A DNA stretch of 64,000 nt. Origin: Qipengyuania pacifica (GTDB taxonomy: Bacteria; Pseudomonadota; Alphaproteobacteria; Sphingomonadales; Sphingomonadaceae). Both the position numbers and the translations under genes were made by a program. The notes beneath the pieces are model-generated. The model searched no databases, was not told the origin of the DNA, and was given only the letters and a program-made list of their open reading frames with translations. Shown piece by piece: positions 48,307 to 54,755 of this stretch (the first letter of the stretch is position 1; each line of letters starts with the position of its first letter). The stretch is from the NCBI RefSeq assembly GCF_019857205.1, contig NZ_JAHWXO010000011.1:1-64000 (forward strand), in the 5' to 3' direction.

Positions 48307-49422
48307 ATGGCAGCGAGCGAGAAAATGGACCGGCCCAACATGAAACCCTGGATCGAGGGCATCCATGCCTATGTTCCGGGCAAGTCGAGGGGTGAGGACG
48401 GGCGCAAGCTGATCAAGCTGTCGGCCAACGAGAACCCGATGGGTTGCAGCCCGGCCGTGCTCGCCGCTCTGGCGCAGGGGCAAGAACCCAGCCTCTACCC
48501 CGACCCCGACGCCACGGCGCTGCGCGAAGCGATCGGCGCACTTCACGGCATCGATGCGGCGCGGATCGTGTGCGGCACCGGTTCTGGCGAATGCCTCCAT
48601 GGCGCGGTACAGGCGTTCGCGGGCCCCGGCGACGAGGTGCTGTTCCCGCGCTATTCCTTTTCGCTCTACCCCCTGCTTGCGCACAAGGTCGGCGCGACGG
48701 TCGTGCTGGCTGAAGACACGGACTATGCGCCCGACGTGGACAAGCTGCTCGCCGCGGTGACGGAGCGCACACGGGTCGTCCTGCTCGACAATCCCAACAA
48801 CCCGGTCGGCACATGGCTGCCGCGTGACGAAGTCGCCAGACTGCATGCCGGGCTGCCGACGAATGTGCTGCTGGTGATCGACCAGGCCTATGCCGAATTC
48901 CTCGACGAAGGCGAGGACGATGGAGGTATGGAACTGGCCGCAAACAACGACAATGTGCTCGTCACCCGAACGTTCGCCAAGGCCTATGGCATCGCGGGCG
49001 AACGCGTGGGCTGGGCGACCGGCGCGCCGCATCTGATCGATGCGCTGAACCGGCTGCGCGGGGCGTTCAACATCACGGCGAGCGGGCAACGTGCGGCGCT
49101 GGCGGCGCTGTCCGACCAGAGCTTCGTCGCCGCATCGCGGGATGCGAACATTGCGGCACGCACGCGCTTCGTCGAACAGATCGAGGCGCTGGGAAACCAT
49201 GGGCTTCGCGCGCTGCCGAGCAAAGCGAATTTCGTGCTGGTCGTATTCGAAGGCGCGCTTGCGGCGGAAACTGCACTGCAGGCCATCGCCGCTGCCGGCT
49301 ACGCCGTGCGCCACCTGCCCGGCCAGGGCCTGCCGCAGGCGCTGCGGATCACCATTGGCACATCGGCCCAGATGGACGAAATCGCTGCCGTGCTGCGCGG
49401 TGTTTGCGGAGCGCAGGCATGA
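48307..49422 (+). CDS. hisC: Histidinol-phosphate aminotransferase (HisC family)
   Basis: A 371-residue PLP aminotransferase. The PLP lysine is in [17 protein letters not shown], and the segments [25 protein letters not shown] and IDQAYAEF are typical of HisC. Because the prephenate dehydrogenase gene follows with an ATGA overlap and no other his genes are near, it may act on aromatic as well as histidinol-phosphate substrates. The ATG at 48307 is the first in frame after the divergent metX gap. Confidence 0.94.
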
Positions 49423-50324
49423 CTATCGAACGCGTCGCCATCGTCGGGCTCGGGCTGATCGGCGGATCGGTCGGGCTGGCGGTGCAGGAGATGCTACCCG
49501 GCATGGCGACGACGGGATGGGATGCCGATACCGATGTGCGCCAGCGCGCAGCCGGGCGCCGGCTTGTGGGCGAGGTCTGCGACACGGTTGCCGAGGCGGT
49601 ACGCGGGGCGGATCTGGTGATCCTTTGCGTACCCGTCGGAGCGATGGGCTATGCTGCCGAAGCGATCGCACCTCATCTCGAACCCGGCGCGATCGTCAGC
49701 GACGTCGGATCGTCCAAGCGCAGCGTTGGCGATGCCCTTGCGGCCGCCCTTCCGGCTGCCATCGTCATTCCCGCGCACCCCGTCGCCGGGACGGAGAATA
49801 GCGGGCCGGATGCCGGATTTCCCGAGCTCTTCCGGCATCGCTGGTGCATTGTCACGCCCGGCAAGAATACACCCCCGGACGCTGTGGACGCGCTCACCCG
49901 GTTCTGGGAAGGACTGGGGGCGACGGTGGAGATCATGGATGCCGAACATCACGACCTGGTGCTCGCCGTGACCAGCCATATTCCCCACCTCATCGCCTAT
50001 ACGATCGTCGGCACGGCCAGCGATCTGGAGGATGTGACGCGGGGCGAGGTGATCAAATATTCGGCCGGCGGGTTCCGCGATTTCACGCGTATCGCCGCCA
50101 GCAACCCCACCATGTGGCGCGATGTCTTCCTGTCCAATCGCGACGCCGTGCTTGAAGTACTGGGCCGCTTCAACGAAGATCTCAGCCGCCTTCAGCGCGC
50201 CATCCGCAATGGCGACGGCGACACGCTGTTCGACCTGTTCGACAAGACCCGCACCATCCGCCGCTCGATCATCGAAGAAGGCCAGGACGATGCCAGACCC
50301 GATTTCGGGCGCGGAGATCATTGA
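49419..50324 (+). CDS. tyrA: Prephenate/arogenate dehydrogenase TyrA
   Basis: Oxidative decarboxylation of prephenate or arogenate in tyrosine synthesis. A 301-residue protein with an N-terminal Rossmann motif ([14 protein letters not shown]) and the family signatures [23 protein letters not shown] and [12 protein letters not shown]; no chorismate mutase or ACT domain is fused. It overlaps hisC by four bases. Part of its 3' end occurs again as a degenerate copy at 52636-52797. Confidence 0.95.
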
Positions 50325-50474
50325 AGCGCTGCATCGTCAGGGGAATCGTACCGTCTCGGCGCGCCCATTAACCACAATGATACCCCCATTTGCGGGTCTG
50401 GAAAGAAAGCTGCGACGTTATATTGTCGACTGACTGAGCTCGCTTGCACATCAACAACCTCGGAGCCATGTCTG

Positions 50475-51968
50475 ATGGCGATTCGCATGTTTTTCCGGGA
50501 TTTCGCGTTTTCGGCAGGCGAGTTGCTTCTACCCAAATCGATCCGGAACAGAGGCGCGCTGCTCGCGATGAGGCGCCTAGCGAGTGCGTGGGCGAGAGAC
50601 GGTTATGTCCTGTCCTATCCAAAGTCCGGCAGAACCTGGCTTCGAACGATGCTCGGCAGCATGGTGTGCGCTCAGTATGGGCTCAAGGTTGAAAACCCGA
50701 TGGAGCTTCAGCACTTCTGGAAACTTTCGTCGGACATTCCGAACATCGGCTTCACTCATGACGACAGCCCAAATCTCAAGTTCGGGCACGAGGTAGACCA
50801 AGACAAGTCCCGCTATCGCAATAAGCGGGTTCTGCTGCTCACACGCGACCCGCGTGACGTTCTGGTATCCTACTATTTCGACGCCAAGAACAGAATGAAG
50901 GTGATCGATTGCGACATCTCGACCTTCATTCACGAAGAAAAGGGCAGCGTCGACGCAATCGTAGCGTTCTATAATGCGTGGGCCGAAGCGCGTTATGTGC
51001 CGCGTGATTTTCTCTGGGTTTCTTACGAGGAAATGCATGCAGATCCTCGGCAGGTCATCCGCAGCACGGCGAAATTTCTCGGTCTTCCCGATCCGGACGA
51101 AACCCTGCTTCAGGAAATCGTCGAAAAGGCATCGTTCCGCAACATGCGCAAGGCCGAACTGCACGACAGCTTCGGCCATGAGCGCCTACGCCCGGCAGAT
51201 CCGCATAATCCGGAAAGCTTCAAGGTACGCCGAGGGAAAGTGGGGGGCTATGTCGATTATCTTTCCAGCGAAGACATCGCCTATGTCGATGCCTACATAG
51301 ACCGGCACCTCCATCCGTTCTTTGCCTGTTATTACAGCAAAGAGAAGGTGGCGCCCTCCGGGAAGGAACTTGCTCCCACCACAGGACAGATCCAGGCACC
51401 TACCATCGCCAGTATTGAACTGGCGCAGAACACCGAATTGCGTGCGAGCAACGACAACCATCGCCGCGAGCGATTCATGCGGCTGGCCGCAGCAGTCGCC
51501 TTGTTCGCCAGCGGCTGGATCGCCAACGAGCTCGATGCGAATTTCGCACCGCCCGCGAGCGCGGCATCGCTTATCAGTGAAGCGCAGGAAGCCTATGTCG
51601 CGAGCAGCGTGCGCGCGAAAATGGTTTCGCAAATAGAGACCAGCGACGTCGACAGAGGCGAGATTTTCGATGCCACCGGTGTCGATCTGCCGGAAATTCC
51701 CGTCGACTGGGTCGTGACCGATGCCCAGCTCTACCCTTCCGATCTGGGAAATTCGGTCGTGCTGACCATGGTCACGGCAGATGACGAGCGAGTATCCCTG
51801 TTTGCAGCAGAAGAAGACACATCCATTGGCGACAGCCCGTCGATGGAGCTGAACAACGGCGTTCCGGTTGCGTACTGGGAAGATGGCGAGGCCGCGCTCG
51901 CCCTGGTTGGGGAACTGGAGGGGCCCCGGTTACTGGAGCTTGCAACTACTCTCGATCGCGAATCCTGA
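50475..51968 (+). CDS. Sulfotransferase fused to a membrane-anchored anti-sigma-like domain
   Basis: A 497-residue protein of unusual design. Residues about 40-290 are a PAPS-dependent sulfotransferase: the 5'-phosphosulfate loop YPKSGRTWLR is at 48-57 and the 3'-phosphate motif TRDPRDVLVSYYF at 123-135. A linker (about 290-330) leads to one membrane helix at about 335-351. Residues about 360-497 look like the periplasmic part of class I anti-sigma factors (DLPEIPVDWVVTDAQLYPS; VPVAYWEDGEAALALVGEL). The zinc anti-sigma helix that binds sigma factors is not present, the sulfotransferase taking its place. It lies in a mosaic island after tyrA, on the tyrA strand. Substrate unknown. Confidence 0.8.
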   Translation: MAIRMFFRDFAFSAGELLLPKSIRNRGALLAMRRLASAWARDGYVLSYPKSGRTWLRTMLGSMVCAQYGLKVENPMELQHFWKLSSDIPNIGFTHDDSPNLKFGHEVDQDKSRYRNKRVLLLTRDPRDVLVSYYFDAKNRMKVIDCDISTFIHEEKGSVDAIVAFYNAWAEARYVPRDFLWVSYEEMHADPRQVIRSTAKFLGLPDPDETLLQEIVEKASFRNMRKAELHDSFGHERLRPADPHNPESFKVRRGKVGGYVDYLSSEDIAYVDAYIDRHLHPFFACYYSKEKVAPSGKELAPTTGQIQAPTIASIELAQNTELRASNDNHRRERFMRLAAAVALFASGWIANELDANFAPPASAASLISEAQEAYVASSVRAKMVSQIETSDVDRGEIFDATGVDLPEIPVDWVVTDAQLYPSDLGNSVVLTMVTADDERVSLFAAEEDTSIGDSPSMELNNGVPVAYWEDGEAALALVGELEGPRLLELATTLDRES

Positions 51969-52003
51969 TCCCTGCCTCAGGAGATCATAATCGTGGCGCG
52001 ATA

Positions 52004-52654
52004 TCAGAGCCCCTCTTCATTGAGCGCGTTGATTGCCGCGAGGACGCGTTTCTCGATCTCGGGACGGGGCAGCCCCGGCGGGATCGGCTCACCGAAGCGG
52101 TAGATGATCCGGCCCGGCTTTTTCAGCCGTTTATGGTAGACCGGCCCGCTATTCACGGCGACGGGGACCACTGGCAGACCGAGCATCTTGTAAAGTCCGG
52201 CAAAGCCCGATTGCAGCGGGCGTACCTCACCATGGGGTACGCGCGTGCCTTCGGGGAAGATCACCAGCGGGCGTCCGTCAGCAACCAGTGCCTTGGCCGA
52301 TCGGATCATCTGCATCAGCGCTTTGGCGCCAGCCTCGCGGGCCACAGGCACAAGGCCGAAAGACGCAGCGGCGCGGCCCCATAGCGGAATGTTGAAGAGT
52401 TCCTGCTTGGCGAACACGCTTGGCGTGTCGAACAGGGCGGGCGCATCGATCGCCTCGAAGAAGCTCTCGTGCTTGATCGCATAGAGCACCGGTTCTTCGA
52501 GCGGGGCGCCTTCCAATACCAGTTCGCAGCCGAGCAGATTGACCAGACACCAGCGCTGCCACTGCGCCCAGTTGCGCACGCGCCGACGGAAGGCCTCGAC
52601 GCTGAAAGTCAGGGCGATAAGCGATACGGAGGTAAAAGTACTGAGCCGGTTCAT
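52004..52654 (-). CDS. Truncated duplicate of lysophospholipid acyltransferase (plsC-like copy 1)
   Basis: A 216-residue copy of the gene at 54072-54755. The acyltransferase motifs are intact (IKHESFFEAID; IFPEGTRVPHGE), but the first 20 or so residues of the full copy, a likely membrane helix, are missing. They are replaced by MNRLSTFT, whose codons are antisense to the tyrA remnant that abuts the break at 52633/52634. The C-terminus also differs (ALNEEGL against ALND). No convincing ribosome site precedes the new start. It is either a degraded copy or a soluble variant. Confidence 0.7.
   Translation of the reverse strand: MNRLSTFTSVSLIALTFSVEAFRRRVRNWAQWQRWCLVNLLGCELVLEGAPLEEPVLYAIKHESFFEAIDAPALFDTPSVFAKQELFNIPLWGRAAASFGLVPVAREAGAKALMQMIRSAKALVADGRPLVIFPEGTRVPHGEVRPLQSGFAGLYKMLGLPVVPVAVNSGPVYHKRLKKPGRIIYRFGEPIPPGLPRPEIEKRVLAAINALNEEGL
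52017..52633. repeat. 617-bp direct repeat, copy 1 (plsC block)
   Basis: It aligns without gaps to 54076-54692 at a constant offset of 2059 bases, with eight mismatches counted by eye (about 98.7% identity). Both copies are in the same orientation, so recombination between them would delete about 2.06 kb. Confidence 0.95.
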
Positions 52655-52797
52655 CGGAGATCTCAGCGGCCTTCAGCGGGCCATCCGCAATGGCGATGGC
52701 GACACGTTGTTCGGCCTGTTCGATAAGACCATCCGCCGCTAGATCATCGAAAAAGGCCAGGACGATGCCAAATGCGATTTCGGGCGCGGAGATCATT
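52636..52797 (+). pseudogene. Degenerate copy of the tyrA 3' end
   Basis: It matches 50155 to about 50321 of tyrA from AAGTAC through GGCGCGGAGATCATT. Compared with the intact gene it has a six-base deletion (AAGACC[CGCACC]ATCCGC) and an in-frame TAG (CCGCTAGATC), plus scattered substitutions; roughly 90% identity by eye. It lacks the rest of tyrA. It is more diverged than the neighbouring plsC repeat, suggesting an older event or a foreign donor. Confidence 0.88.
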
Positions 52798-52880
52798 GCG
52801 GCAAACTCAAGATCTTAGCCGAGCAGTACCTACTCAGCGGAAAGTCAGACGTTGCTCTTCTCGACCTTTTGGGCTTGTAT

Positions 52881-54020
52881 TTAAGTTAGCGAGCATGGTC
52901 TAGCCGTACGTCTGTTATTTTCTGCGTTCACACGCTTCGCCCCGCTAAATAAGCGTTTACAACTTTGGGGAACTTTATTTTGATATAATTTAGATATCTC
53001 CATCTGCTTGCATTGGTACGTGCCATCGAGCACGTTGTCGCGGAATACATTCTCGAAGCTAGGGCATTCTCCCGACCGCTTTGTACAATCACTTCTTACG
53101 TCATTGTTGCAATACCAGTCCGAGTAGCCAGCCGCTCCGGACTTGATCAAGGTATTACCCACGATCGTATTGTTGTTTGATACATCACGAAGTCGAATGG
53201 CATCGCCGCTTACGTTTTCAAAGCGGTTTCTGATAATTGTATTACGATCTGACTGATGCGCCAAATACAATGCATGTATTAATCCCGACCCTCTTCCAAC
53301 GTTCTGAATGTTTAAGAATTTGTTATTAATTATTTTAGTTCTATTGGAGTTCACCAAGCGGATCGCAGCCGTTGATGGCCCGAGCGCCTCATTGTAGCCA
53401 TTTCCTATTTCTATGAAGGCCAAACCGCTAACAGTATTCCCACCAGCCAATTTCGACGGAGAATCTCGATTTCCGTTGAATGAAATGGCTGTGCCATAGT
53501 GTTTAACAACGAGATTATAAAAATGAATATTACTGGGCGCGTTGGCGCTCTCCCTTAGAGCAAACCATGTTCCTCCATCACATTGAACGGAATAAACGTT
53601 CGACTTGGAACAGCCGTCAAAAATCGGGGGGGGCTTGCCCTCATCCAATGGTAAGAACATAATGGAGTTGTGGGGCATGGTGAACGTCCACTTCACCCGC
53701 TGGTTATAGTACGTTCCCGAAGCAATCCATATTTTGACATCATTCTCAGGTTTTGATCGAAGTAGAATTTCGTGCGCCGCCGCAATGGTCGAAACCGGTT
53801 CATCTCGCGAGAGCCCACTGTTCGTATCGTCACCGTCCGGCGATAAAAATATTTCTATGCTATTGGCTTGGCCGGGCAGTTTCGTCGCGCCTGTCAGCAC
53901 TAAGATTAAACCAAGTAAAGCTAACGATAGGGCGCCCAACTTCAATTGAGTCCCTAACGGGGGGTGATGAAGACCTTGAGGATGAGATAATCGCATTAAT
54001 TGAGCAACGTTCTTTTGCAT
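52881..54020 (-). CDS. Secreted right-handed beta-helix protein, horizontally acquired
   Basis: A 379-residue protein with an N-terminal hydrophobic segment (about 28-47) acting as a signal or anchor, then the DUF1565-like opening IEIFLSPDGDDTNSGLS and repeated parallel beta-helix turns with Asn ladders (TKIINNKFLNIQNV; NTIIRNRFENVSGDAIRLRDVSNNNTIVGNTLIKSG). Six or so Cys residues in the C-terminal third may form disulfides. The fold is used by polysaccharide lyases, epimerases and surface proteins; no catalytic set was recognised. Base composition is strikingly AT-rich against its neighbours. It lies between the two plsC copies. Confidence 0.75.
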   Translation of the reverse strand: MQKNVAQLMRLSHPQGLHHPPLGTQLKLGALSLALLGLILVLTGATKLPGQANSIEIFLSPDGDDTNSGLSRDEPVSTIAAAHEILLRSKPENDVKIWIASGTYYNQRVKWTFTMPHNSIMFLPLDEGKPPPIFDGCSKSNVYSVQCDGGTWFALRESANAPSNIHFYNLVVKHYGTAISFNGNRDSPSKLAGGNTVSGLAFIEIGNGYNEALGPSTAAIRLVNSNRTKIINNKFLNIQNVGRGSGLIHALYLAHQSDRNTIIRNRFENVSGDAIRLRDVSNNNTIVGNTLIKSGAAGYSDWYCNNDVRSDCTKRSGECPSFENVFRDNVLDGTYQCKQMEISKLYQNKVPQSCKRLFSGAKRVNAENNRRTARPCSLT

Positions 54021-54071
54021 AAAGTGGTGCCACCGGTGACACTTGCACGTAAAGTCTGCCGAGGCTGCGAT

Positions 54072-54755
54072 TTAGTCATTGAGCGCGTTGATTGCCGCGA
54101 GGACGCGTTTCTCGATCTCGGGACGGGGCAGCCCTGGTGGGATCGGTTCACCGAAGCGGTAGATGATCCGGCCCGGCTTTTTCAGCCGTTTGTGGTAGAC
54201 CGGCCCGCTATTCACGGCGACGGGGACCACTGGCAGACCGAGCATCTTGTAAAGTCCGGCAAAGCCCGATTGCAGCGGGCGTACCTCACCATGGGGTACG
54301 CGGGTGCCTTCGGGGAAGATCACCAGCGGGCGTCCGTCAGCAACCAGTGCCTTGGCCGATCGGATCATCTGCATCAGCGCTTTGGCGCCAGCCTCGCGGG
54401 CCACAGGCACAAGGCCGAAAGACGCAGCGGCGCGGCCCCATAGCGGAATGTTGAAGAGTTCCTGCTTGGCGAACACGCTTGGCGTGTTGAACAGGGCGGG
54501 CGCATCGATCGCCTCGAAGAAGCTCTCGTGCTTGATCGCATAGAGCACCGGTTCTTCGAGCGGGGCGCCTTCCAATACCAGTTCGCAGCCGAGCAGATTG
54601 ACCAGACACCAGCGCTGCCACTGTGCCCAGTTGCGCACGCGCCGACGGAAGGCCTCGACGCTGAAAGTCAGGGCGATAAGCGATGCGGAGGTGATCAGCA
54701 GGCTGCCGATGTAGAAAGCGAAGTAAAAGGCGATATTGCGGATGAGGCGCATCAC
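54072..54755 (-). CDS. Lysophospholipid acyltransferase family protein (PlsC-like, full copy)
   Basis: A 227-residue 1-acylglycerol-3-phosphate acyltransferase-type enzyme. An N-terminal membrane helix (about 7-30) precedes the acyltransferase motif IKHESFFEAID (HxxxxD-type, near 75) and the substrate motif FPEGTR (near 150). It begins three bases after the ydcF-like gene stop, so it ends the ftsE-ftsX-ydcF operon; this is the expected ancestral position. The C-terminus (ALND) lies at the edge of the homologous block shared with copy 1 and may have been altered by the insertion. Confidence 0.9.
   Translation of the reverse strand: MMRLIRNIAFYFAFYIGSLLITSASLIALTFSVEAFRRRVRNWAQWQRWCLVNLLGCELVLEGAPLEEPVLYAIKHESFFEAIDAPALFNTPSVFAKQELFNIPLWGRAAASFGLVPVAREAGAKALMQMIRSAKALVADGRPLVIFPEGTRVPHGEVRPLQSGFAGLYKMLGLPVVPVAVNSGPVYHKRLKKPGRIIYRFGEPIPPGLPRPEIEKRVLAAINALND
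54076..54692. repeat. 617-bp direct repeat, copy 2 (plsC block)
   Basis: Second copy of the block at 52017-52633. Its upstream flank continues into the normal plsC N-terminus, while the flank of copy 1 switches to tyrA-derived sequence. Confidence 0.95.

Follow-up and report, generated by a model that had tools for sequence, protein, structure and literature searches.

Anti-sigma factors are the known links between the state of the cell envelope and transcription, and the membrane-bound anti-sigma factors of the extracytoplasmic function (ECF) class compared here are those of the RsiW type (COG5662). In the RsgI proteins, the extracellular part varies while the sigma-binding part is constant. 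RseB and MucB, on the other hand, are separate periplasmic proteins that regulate sigma E. In Bacillus subtilis, signal peptidase starts the regulated proteolysis of the anti-sigma factor RsiV after lysozyme has bound, according to PMC6066255. Clostridium thermocellum has several anti-sigma-type proteins (RsgI) that respond to distinct inputs and whose transmembrane helix is cut by RseP (PMC12203970). A stretch of 64,000 nucleotides from Qipengyuania pacifica (the window) holds a gene in which the sensor half of an anti-sigma factor has been put to new use on an enzyme that has no sigma gene beside it. The uninterrupted open reading frame (ORF) of 497 amino acids, at 50475..51968 on the forward strand, encodes a sulfotransferase, a linker, a short hydrophobic segment and an anti-sigma-type periplasmic domain, as judged from its translation and from full-length homologues.

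Like the membrane-bound ECF anti-sigma factors (e.g., WP_262292104.1 of Phyllobacterium zundukense), this protein has a homologous hydrophobic segment and periplasmic domain. Unlike them, it has an enzyme in place of the sigma-binding domain and no adjoining ECF gene, and its hydrophobic segment is weaker, as it also is in fusions of the Methyltransf_24 class. The likeness to RsiV (PMC6066255) is one of layout: both have a cytoplasmic module, one hydrophobic segment, a signal-peptidase-like site and an extracytoplasmic domain, but the cytoplasmic part of the fusions is an enzyme, and no amphipathic helix was found after their site. Compared with RsgI, the arrangement is inverted, since in the fusions the sensor part is constant and the cytoplasmic part varies. 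Judged from titles and abstract openings, none of the papers that turned up in literature searches, which mostly did not reach subscription papers, deals with a fusion between an enzyme and the periplasmic domain of an anti-sigma factor.

The sulfotransferase fusion and its anti-sigma-type tail

The enzyme half belongs to PF00685 (Sulfotransfer_1), which matches residues 44-280 (50604..51314, forward strand) at 7.2e-25, with 88.3 bits against a curated cut-off of 22. The motifs that bind 3'-phosphoadenosine-5'-phosphosulfate (PAPS) can be read in the translation, as the original prediction had stated for this single open frame: YPKSGRTWLR, the 5'-PSB motif, at residues 48-57 (50616..50645, forward), and TRDPRDVLVSYYF, the 3'-PB motif, at residues 123-135 (50841..50879, forward). 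PKSGRTW occurs in all four sulfotransferase fusions and in two of three stand-alone homologues, and RDPRDV in all seven of these proteins. A sequence search of the PDB gave 39 distinct chains at E 0.001 or better, mostly named sulfotransferases. Supply of PAPS is plausible, since an adenosine-5'-phosphosulfate (APS) kinase is present.

The nearest stand-alone sulfotransferases, from three genomes of the same bacterial family (loci L091, L092 and L093), are 63-64% identical (65-66% over residues 1-285). They share the PAPS motifs and the whole domain but stop after it, at 304-324 amino acids, whereas the window protein adds the linker, the hydrophobic segment and the periplasmic domain. All three sit amid polysaccharide genes, whose names were assigned by eye unless a Pfam result is given: a Wzz/GNVR chain-length gene is confirmed by Pfam at L091 and has a BLAST relative at L093, L092 has other cluster genes in common with the stand-alone loci, and genes resembling sugar transferases and acyltransferases lie nearby. 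This company suggests that the acceptor of the sulfotransferase may be a glycan.

The C-terminal part is less easily recognized. Residues 318-497 alone had no match in Pfam and one irrelevant, sub-threshold match in NCBIfam, and a sequence profile of this part had no match in the PDB. It was homologues from other genomes that revealed the link to anti-sigma factors. Searching with residues 323-497 gave matches in 40 of 298 genomes of the family, and a profile (A1) built from 30 such C-terminal domains matched in 20 of 396 genomes sampled from the order, in 52 of 397 from the family and in 38 of 289 from the class, these samples being overlapping ones. In a tblastn search, the window protein matched over residues 237-495 the Phyllobacterium zundukense stretch in which WP_262292104.1, named as an anti-sigma factor by the Prokaryotic Genome Annotation Pipeline (PGAP), adjoins a sigma-70 gene. 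Among 76 distinct members that were read, 43 have an anti-sigma-like N-terminus, 30 are enzyme fusions and three are unclassified, as classed by blastp with eight seeds at E 0.001. Beyond the family, the 19 members read (about 20 further matches in the class were left unread) comprise 17 of the anti-sigma type, two unclassified and no enzyme fusion. Two anti-sigma members also matched known models, one at L018 with a zf-HC2 score exactly at the cut-off and one at L028 with an NCBIfam anti-sigma model below it. On sequence grounds, the C-terminal part is a homologue of the periplasmic domain that ECF anti-sigma factors carry, as the original prediction had proposed from its texture. At three anti-sigma loci, a similar oxidoreductase-like gene (named by eye) adjoins the anti-sigma gene (L094 10124-11761, L095 9315-10973 and L175 7020-8678).

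In the structure model, the periplasmic domain (residues 364-497; 51564..51965, forward) taken together with the hydrophobic segment has a mean predicted local distance difference test (pLDDT) score of 88 and consists of two helices followed by six strands and one last helix. The folds that it resembles most, though weakly, are those of the RseB and MucB C-terminal domains, a likeness of fold with no sequence match in the PDB to go with it. Prediction of the full chain was poor over the enzyme half (mean pLDDT 67), and no conclusion on domain packing was drawn from it.

The genes next door set the fusions apart from their relatives. With an ECF profile built from the sigma genes of five anti-sigma loci that it then recovered, an ECF sigma gene was found in the stretch read for 42 of the 43 anti-sigma members but for none of the 30 enzyme fusions, 23 of which were read in stretches of 7 to 20 kb (64 kb for the window) and the others in stretches of 2 to 3.5 kb. 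Among long stretches only, the gene is present at nine of nine anti-sigma members and at none of 23 fusions. There is none in the 64-kb window and none at the named fusion loci L184-L187. The sigma gene at L171 matches Sigma70_r2 and r4_2, and the sole anti-sigma-type member without an ECF gene (genome G196, L075) was read in a stretch of 3.5 kb. At its N-terminus, the window protein has the sulfotransferase and a poorly conserved linker, and no sigma-binding domain of the anti-sigma type. Since the ECF gene stands beside nearly all of the anti-sigma relatives but none of the fusions, the window protein is not an anti-sigma factor.

The architecture recurs. Full-length fusions were found in Q. 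qiaonensis (85% identity), in an Erythrobacter metagenome-assembled genome (MAG; 68%) and in Aurantiacibacter rhizosphaerae (65%), so that no sequencing frameshift is at issue. The four sulfotransferase fusions lie in four different gene surroundings, none with an evident polysaccharide cluster within 6 to 9 kb on each side, as judged by eye; the copy in the Erythrobacter MAG is preceded by an acyltransferase-like gene (also by eye). Nothing was found in the viral contigs scanned for the fusion, and although 231 plasmid records have partial matches to the query, in no record does a single place account for 80% of it. Between the window and Q. qiaonensis, nonsynonymous and synonymous divergence (dN/dS) is 0.057/0.87 across the enzyme, and across the hydrophobic segment with the periplasmic domain it is 0.058/0.734, which gives ratios of about 0.07-0.08 for both halves in this comparison of two genomes. 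The linker (residues 289-334; 51339..51476, forward) is only 46% identical between the two copies, compared to 88-89% for both flanks. Both halves are under purifying selection and the linker is not, and two conserved halves around a free linker look like the pattern of a working two-domain protein.

Other enzymes with the same tail

The presence of the same kind of tail on other enzyme classes is beyond what the single sequence behind the original prediction could show. The 30 enzyme fusions comprise 22 Methyltransf_24 proteins (from 21 genomes and eight genera), three FkbM methyltransferases (two genera), two sulfotransferases and three possibly glycerophosphotransferase-like proteins (two genera), this last label being based on a single sub-threshold Pfam match and on motifs identified by eye, which later runs did not reproduce. 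The sulfotransferase fusions of the Erythrobacter MAG and Aurantiacibacter rhizosphaerae come on top of these 30. The tail is thus present on three clear enzyme classes and on a probable fourth. Enzymes that for the most part resemble tailoring enzymes of surface glycans have recruited the sensor half of an anti-sigma factor. One FkbM fusion (L088) lies in a cluster of polysaccharide genes and adjoins another sulfotransferase gene, while another (L087) is not in such a cluster. A further methyltransferase-sensor fusion, additional to the 30, is carried on plas1, a 1-Mb plasmid of Croceicoccus marinus (L187). Two of the three unclassified members have an ECF gene nearby; the third, in genome G156 (L090 7935-8915, forward), is a sensor domain with neither an ECF gene nor a recognizable N-terminal domain in any frame, perhaps a remnant or a domain with a further partner.

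Where did the sulfotransferase get its tail? Two maximum-likelihood trees built from the domain both nest the sensors of the sulfotransferases within those of the Methyltransf_24 fusions, at starred forks, and both group the FkbM sensors with the anti-sigma factors. (The first tree included ten distant anti-sigma rows that were left out of the second, and both were made without the three unclassified members.) This nesting fits better with a swap of the enzyme part in a protein that already joined enzyme and sensor, and the sulfotransferase thus likely gained its tail from a methyltransferase fusion rather than directly from an anti-sigma factor. The swap is held as likely, not as shown, because approximately unbiased (AU) tests do not reject the alternatives, whether a single clade of the methyltransferase sensors (p 0.053 and 0.175) or one of all fusions (p 0.189). 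It had been suggested originally that a sulfotransferase replaced the sigma-binding module; an enzyme does stand in that place, but the replacement was probably not a direct one. The FkbM fusions are possibly of separate origin, so that the anti-sigma periplasmic domain would have been recruited at least once and perhaps twice.

Possible roles of the tail

The membrane helix that had been placed at about residues 335-351 exists as a hydrophobic segment, LAAAVALFASGWIA, at residues 337-350 (51483..51524, forward), with basic residues ahead of it and a helix at 336-355 in the model. It is weak, however, with 14 uncharged residues and a best 19-residue Kyte-Doolittle mean (KD19) of 1.21, the customary threshold for a transmembrane helix being 1.6. 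The uncharged run is exactly 14 residues in all 24 Methyltransf_24 and sulfotransferase fusions measured, and none of these reaches a KD19 of 1.6, compared to 28 of the 43 anti-sigma members. Shortly after the segment comes A-S-A (residues 361-363; 51555..51563, forward), a motif that conforms to the (-3,-1) rule for signal-peptidase sites, and of the 30 enzyme fusions, one has a gap at this alignment position and 24 of the other 29 have [AV]-x-A.

Why, then, would a sulfotransferase carry such a tail? Ranked first, and held with moderate confidence, is the explanation that a surface-glycan sulfotransferase is tethered at the inner membrane by a module derived from an ECF anti-sigma factor and receives input from the periplasm. 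The enzyme would be cytoplasmic and the tail periplasmic, and the enzyme would act on membrane-bound polysaccharide or lipid-linked glycan intermediates before their export. The periplasmic domain, which in its relatives would report the state of the envelope to a sigma factor, would now control or place the enzyme instead, its input crossing the short hydrophobic segment through a conformational change or regulated cleavage. This explanation is favored because a PAPS domain, a hydrophobic segment and a homologous tail have been kept together in four genomes with no sigma gene. If the tail does sense, it would provide a short circuit from the periplasm to the chemistry of the surface coat. Uncharacterized methyl- and sulfotransferases would also gain a likely place of action, and the periplasmic domain a second setting in which its ligand might be found.

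A passive anchor and a cleaved precursor are both live rivals of the tether with input. The first, which is the less unlikely of the two, holds that the tail merely places the enzyme at the membrane or at a glycan-export complex and senses nothing. In its favor, the same type of tail is found on several enzyme classes that could gain from access to lipid-linked glycans, and the tail is optional: a search with the methyltransferase domain gave 66 matches in 65 of 254 family genomes, of which the nine best come from fused proteins; among the remaining 57, 46 have frames of only 242-304 amino acids, too short for a tail. However, conservation of the periplasmic domain (90% identity) equals that of the enzyme and exceeds what a mere anchor needs, and the trees suggest that this domain, which has signal receptors for relatives, was chosen at least once and perhaps twice.

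In the second rival, somewhat more doubtful again, the protein is a cleaved precursor or a substrate of regulated proteolysis. The weak 14-residue segment followed by A-x-A makes cleavage by signal peptidase a live possibility, as the two together look like an internal signal sequence. Signal peptidase would cut after A-x-A, either always or upon binding of a ligand, and the enzyme would then be set free, eliminated or retained on a short anchor. The conserved [AV]-x-A and the difference in hydrophobicity from the anti-sigma members are in favor of this, and RsiV is a precedent, in that signal peptidase makes the first cut once lysozyme binds (PMC6066255). On the other hand, RsiV is guarded by an amphipathic element, and the helix that follows the site in the fusions is not amphipathic by its hydrophobic moment (a mean z of -0.72 versus shuffles; family-mean permutation p 0.80). 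A second [AV]-x-A in the next helix of 23 of the 30 fusions shows what an alanine-rich sequence yields by itself, and such a composition may explain part of the conservation at the first. Moreover, KD19 does reach 1.6 in two of the three FkbM and two of the three glycerophosphotransferase-like fusions.

More speculative is a wider proposal that would combine these elements: that Erythrobacteraceae and their relatives have a portable receptor cassette, derived from anti-sigma factors and placed on several surface-glycan enzymes, in which a periplasmic cue leads to cleavage at A-x-A and thereby switches the location or lifetime of the enzyme. If this tentative scheme is true, envelope signals would alter the surface coat at the level of the enzyme, with neither a sigma factor nor transcription involved.

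It is very improbable that the fusion still functions as an anti-sigma factor by binding a sigma factor through its enzyme domain. The C-terminal domain is indeed that of anti-sigma factors, but this reading is opposed by the missing sigma-binding domain and ECF genes noted above, and 23 of 27 fusion-bearing genomes have no anti-sigma member of the same domain family in the search lists (one of the 23, G014, has an additional weak match, E 0.0019, that was left unread). A dead chimera or assembly artefact, for which the duplicated sequences at the locus might have spoken and of which the original prediction had allowed a version (a plain recombination chimera), is refuted by the intact full-length homologues in three other genomes, each in its own surroundings, and by the strong purifying selection on both halves, and its probability is close to nil.

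The insertion site and the upstream region

The window and Q. qiaonensis have a unit in common at different loci, with 81.5% DNA identity: it spans 50340..51972 (forward) and consists of about 135 bp of upstream sequence and the ORF, with nothing beyond. Within the two otherwise diverged upstream regions, ATACCCCCATTTGCGG (50380..50395, forward), 80-95 bp ahead of the start codon, is identical in both Qipengyuania copies, and could possibly be a regulatory element. A search ahead of the two remaining sulfotransferase fusions did not find it, and its 15-base core is present as a single copy in the genome; no regulon could therefore be built.

The locus is disturbed by duplication, in keeping with the instability originally ascribed to it. 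To the left of the ORF, the site is bordered by a prephenate-dehydrogenase-like gene (tyrA, named by eye; 49404..50324, forward), which is matched in 37 of 60 genomes of the genus, and on the far right by a complete acyltransferase-like gene (plsC, by eye; 54072..54755, reverse). In between lie a truncated second copy of the plsC-like gene (52017..52633, reverse; 98.7% identical to 54076-54692), a fragment of the 3' end of tyrA (52636..52798, forward; 87.6% identical to the complete gene) and a second insert encoding a right-handed beta-helix protein (52881..54020, reverse; PF13229, sub-threshold). Thus, over window positions 50155-54692, the truncated plsC copy and the tyrA fragment separate two unrelated inserts. 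Since the two duplicated pieces differ in their identity to the complete genes, recombination involving a foreign allele may be suspected.

The site between tyrA and plsC accepts insertions. At 29 loci of the genus, examined with flanks of 1.5 kb, the two genes are adjacent in 11 cases and separated by a gap of 0.5 to 1.4 kb in four, and in the other 14 no plsC is reached. Q. qiaonensis has genes for a TylF-like methyltransferase and for a PhyH dioxygenase at the same site (L181 5429-7885), and it may be that the site collects lone tailoring genes.
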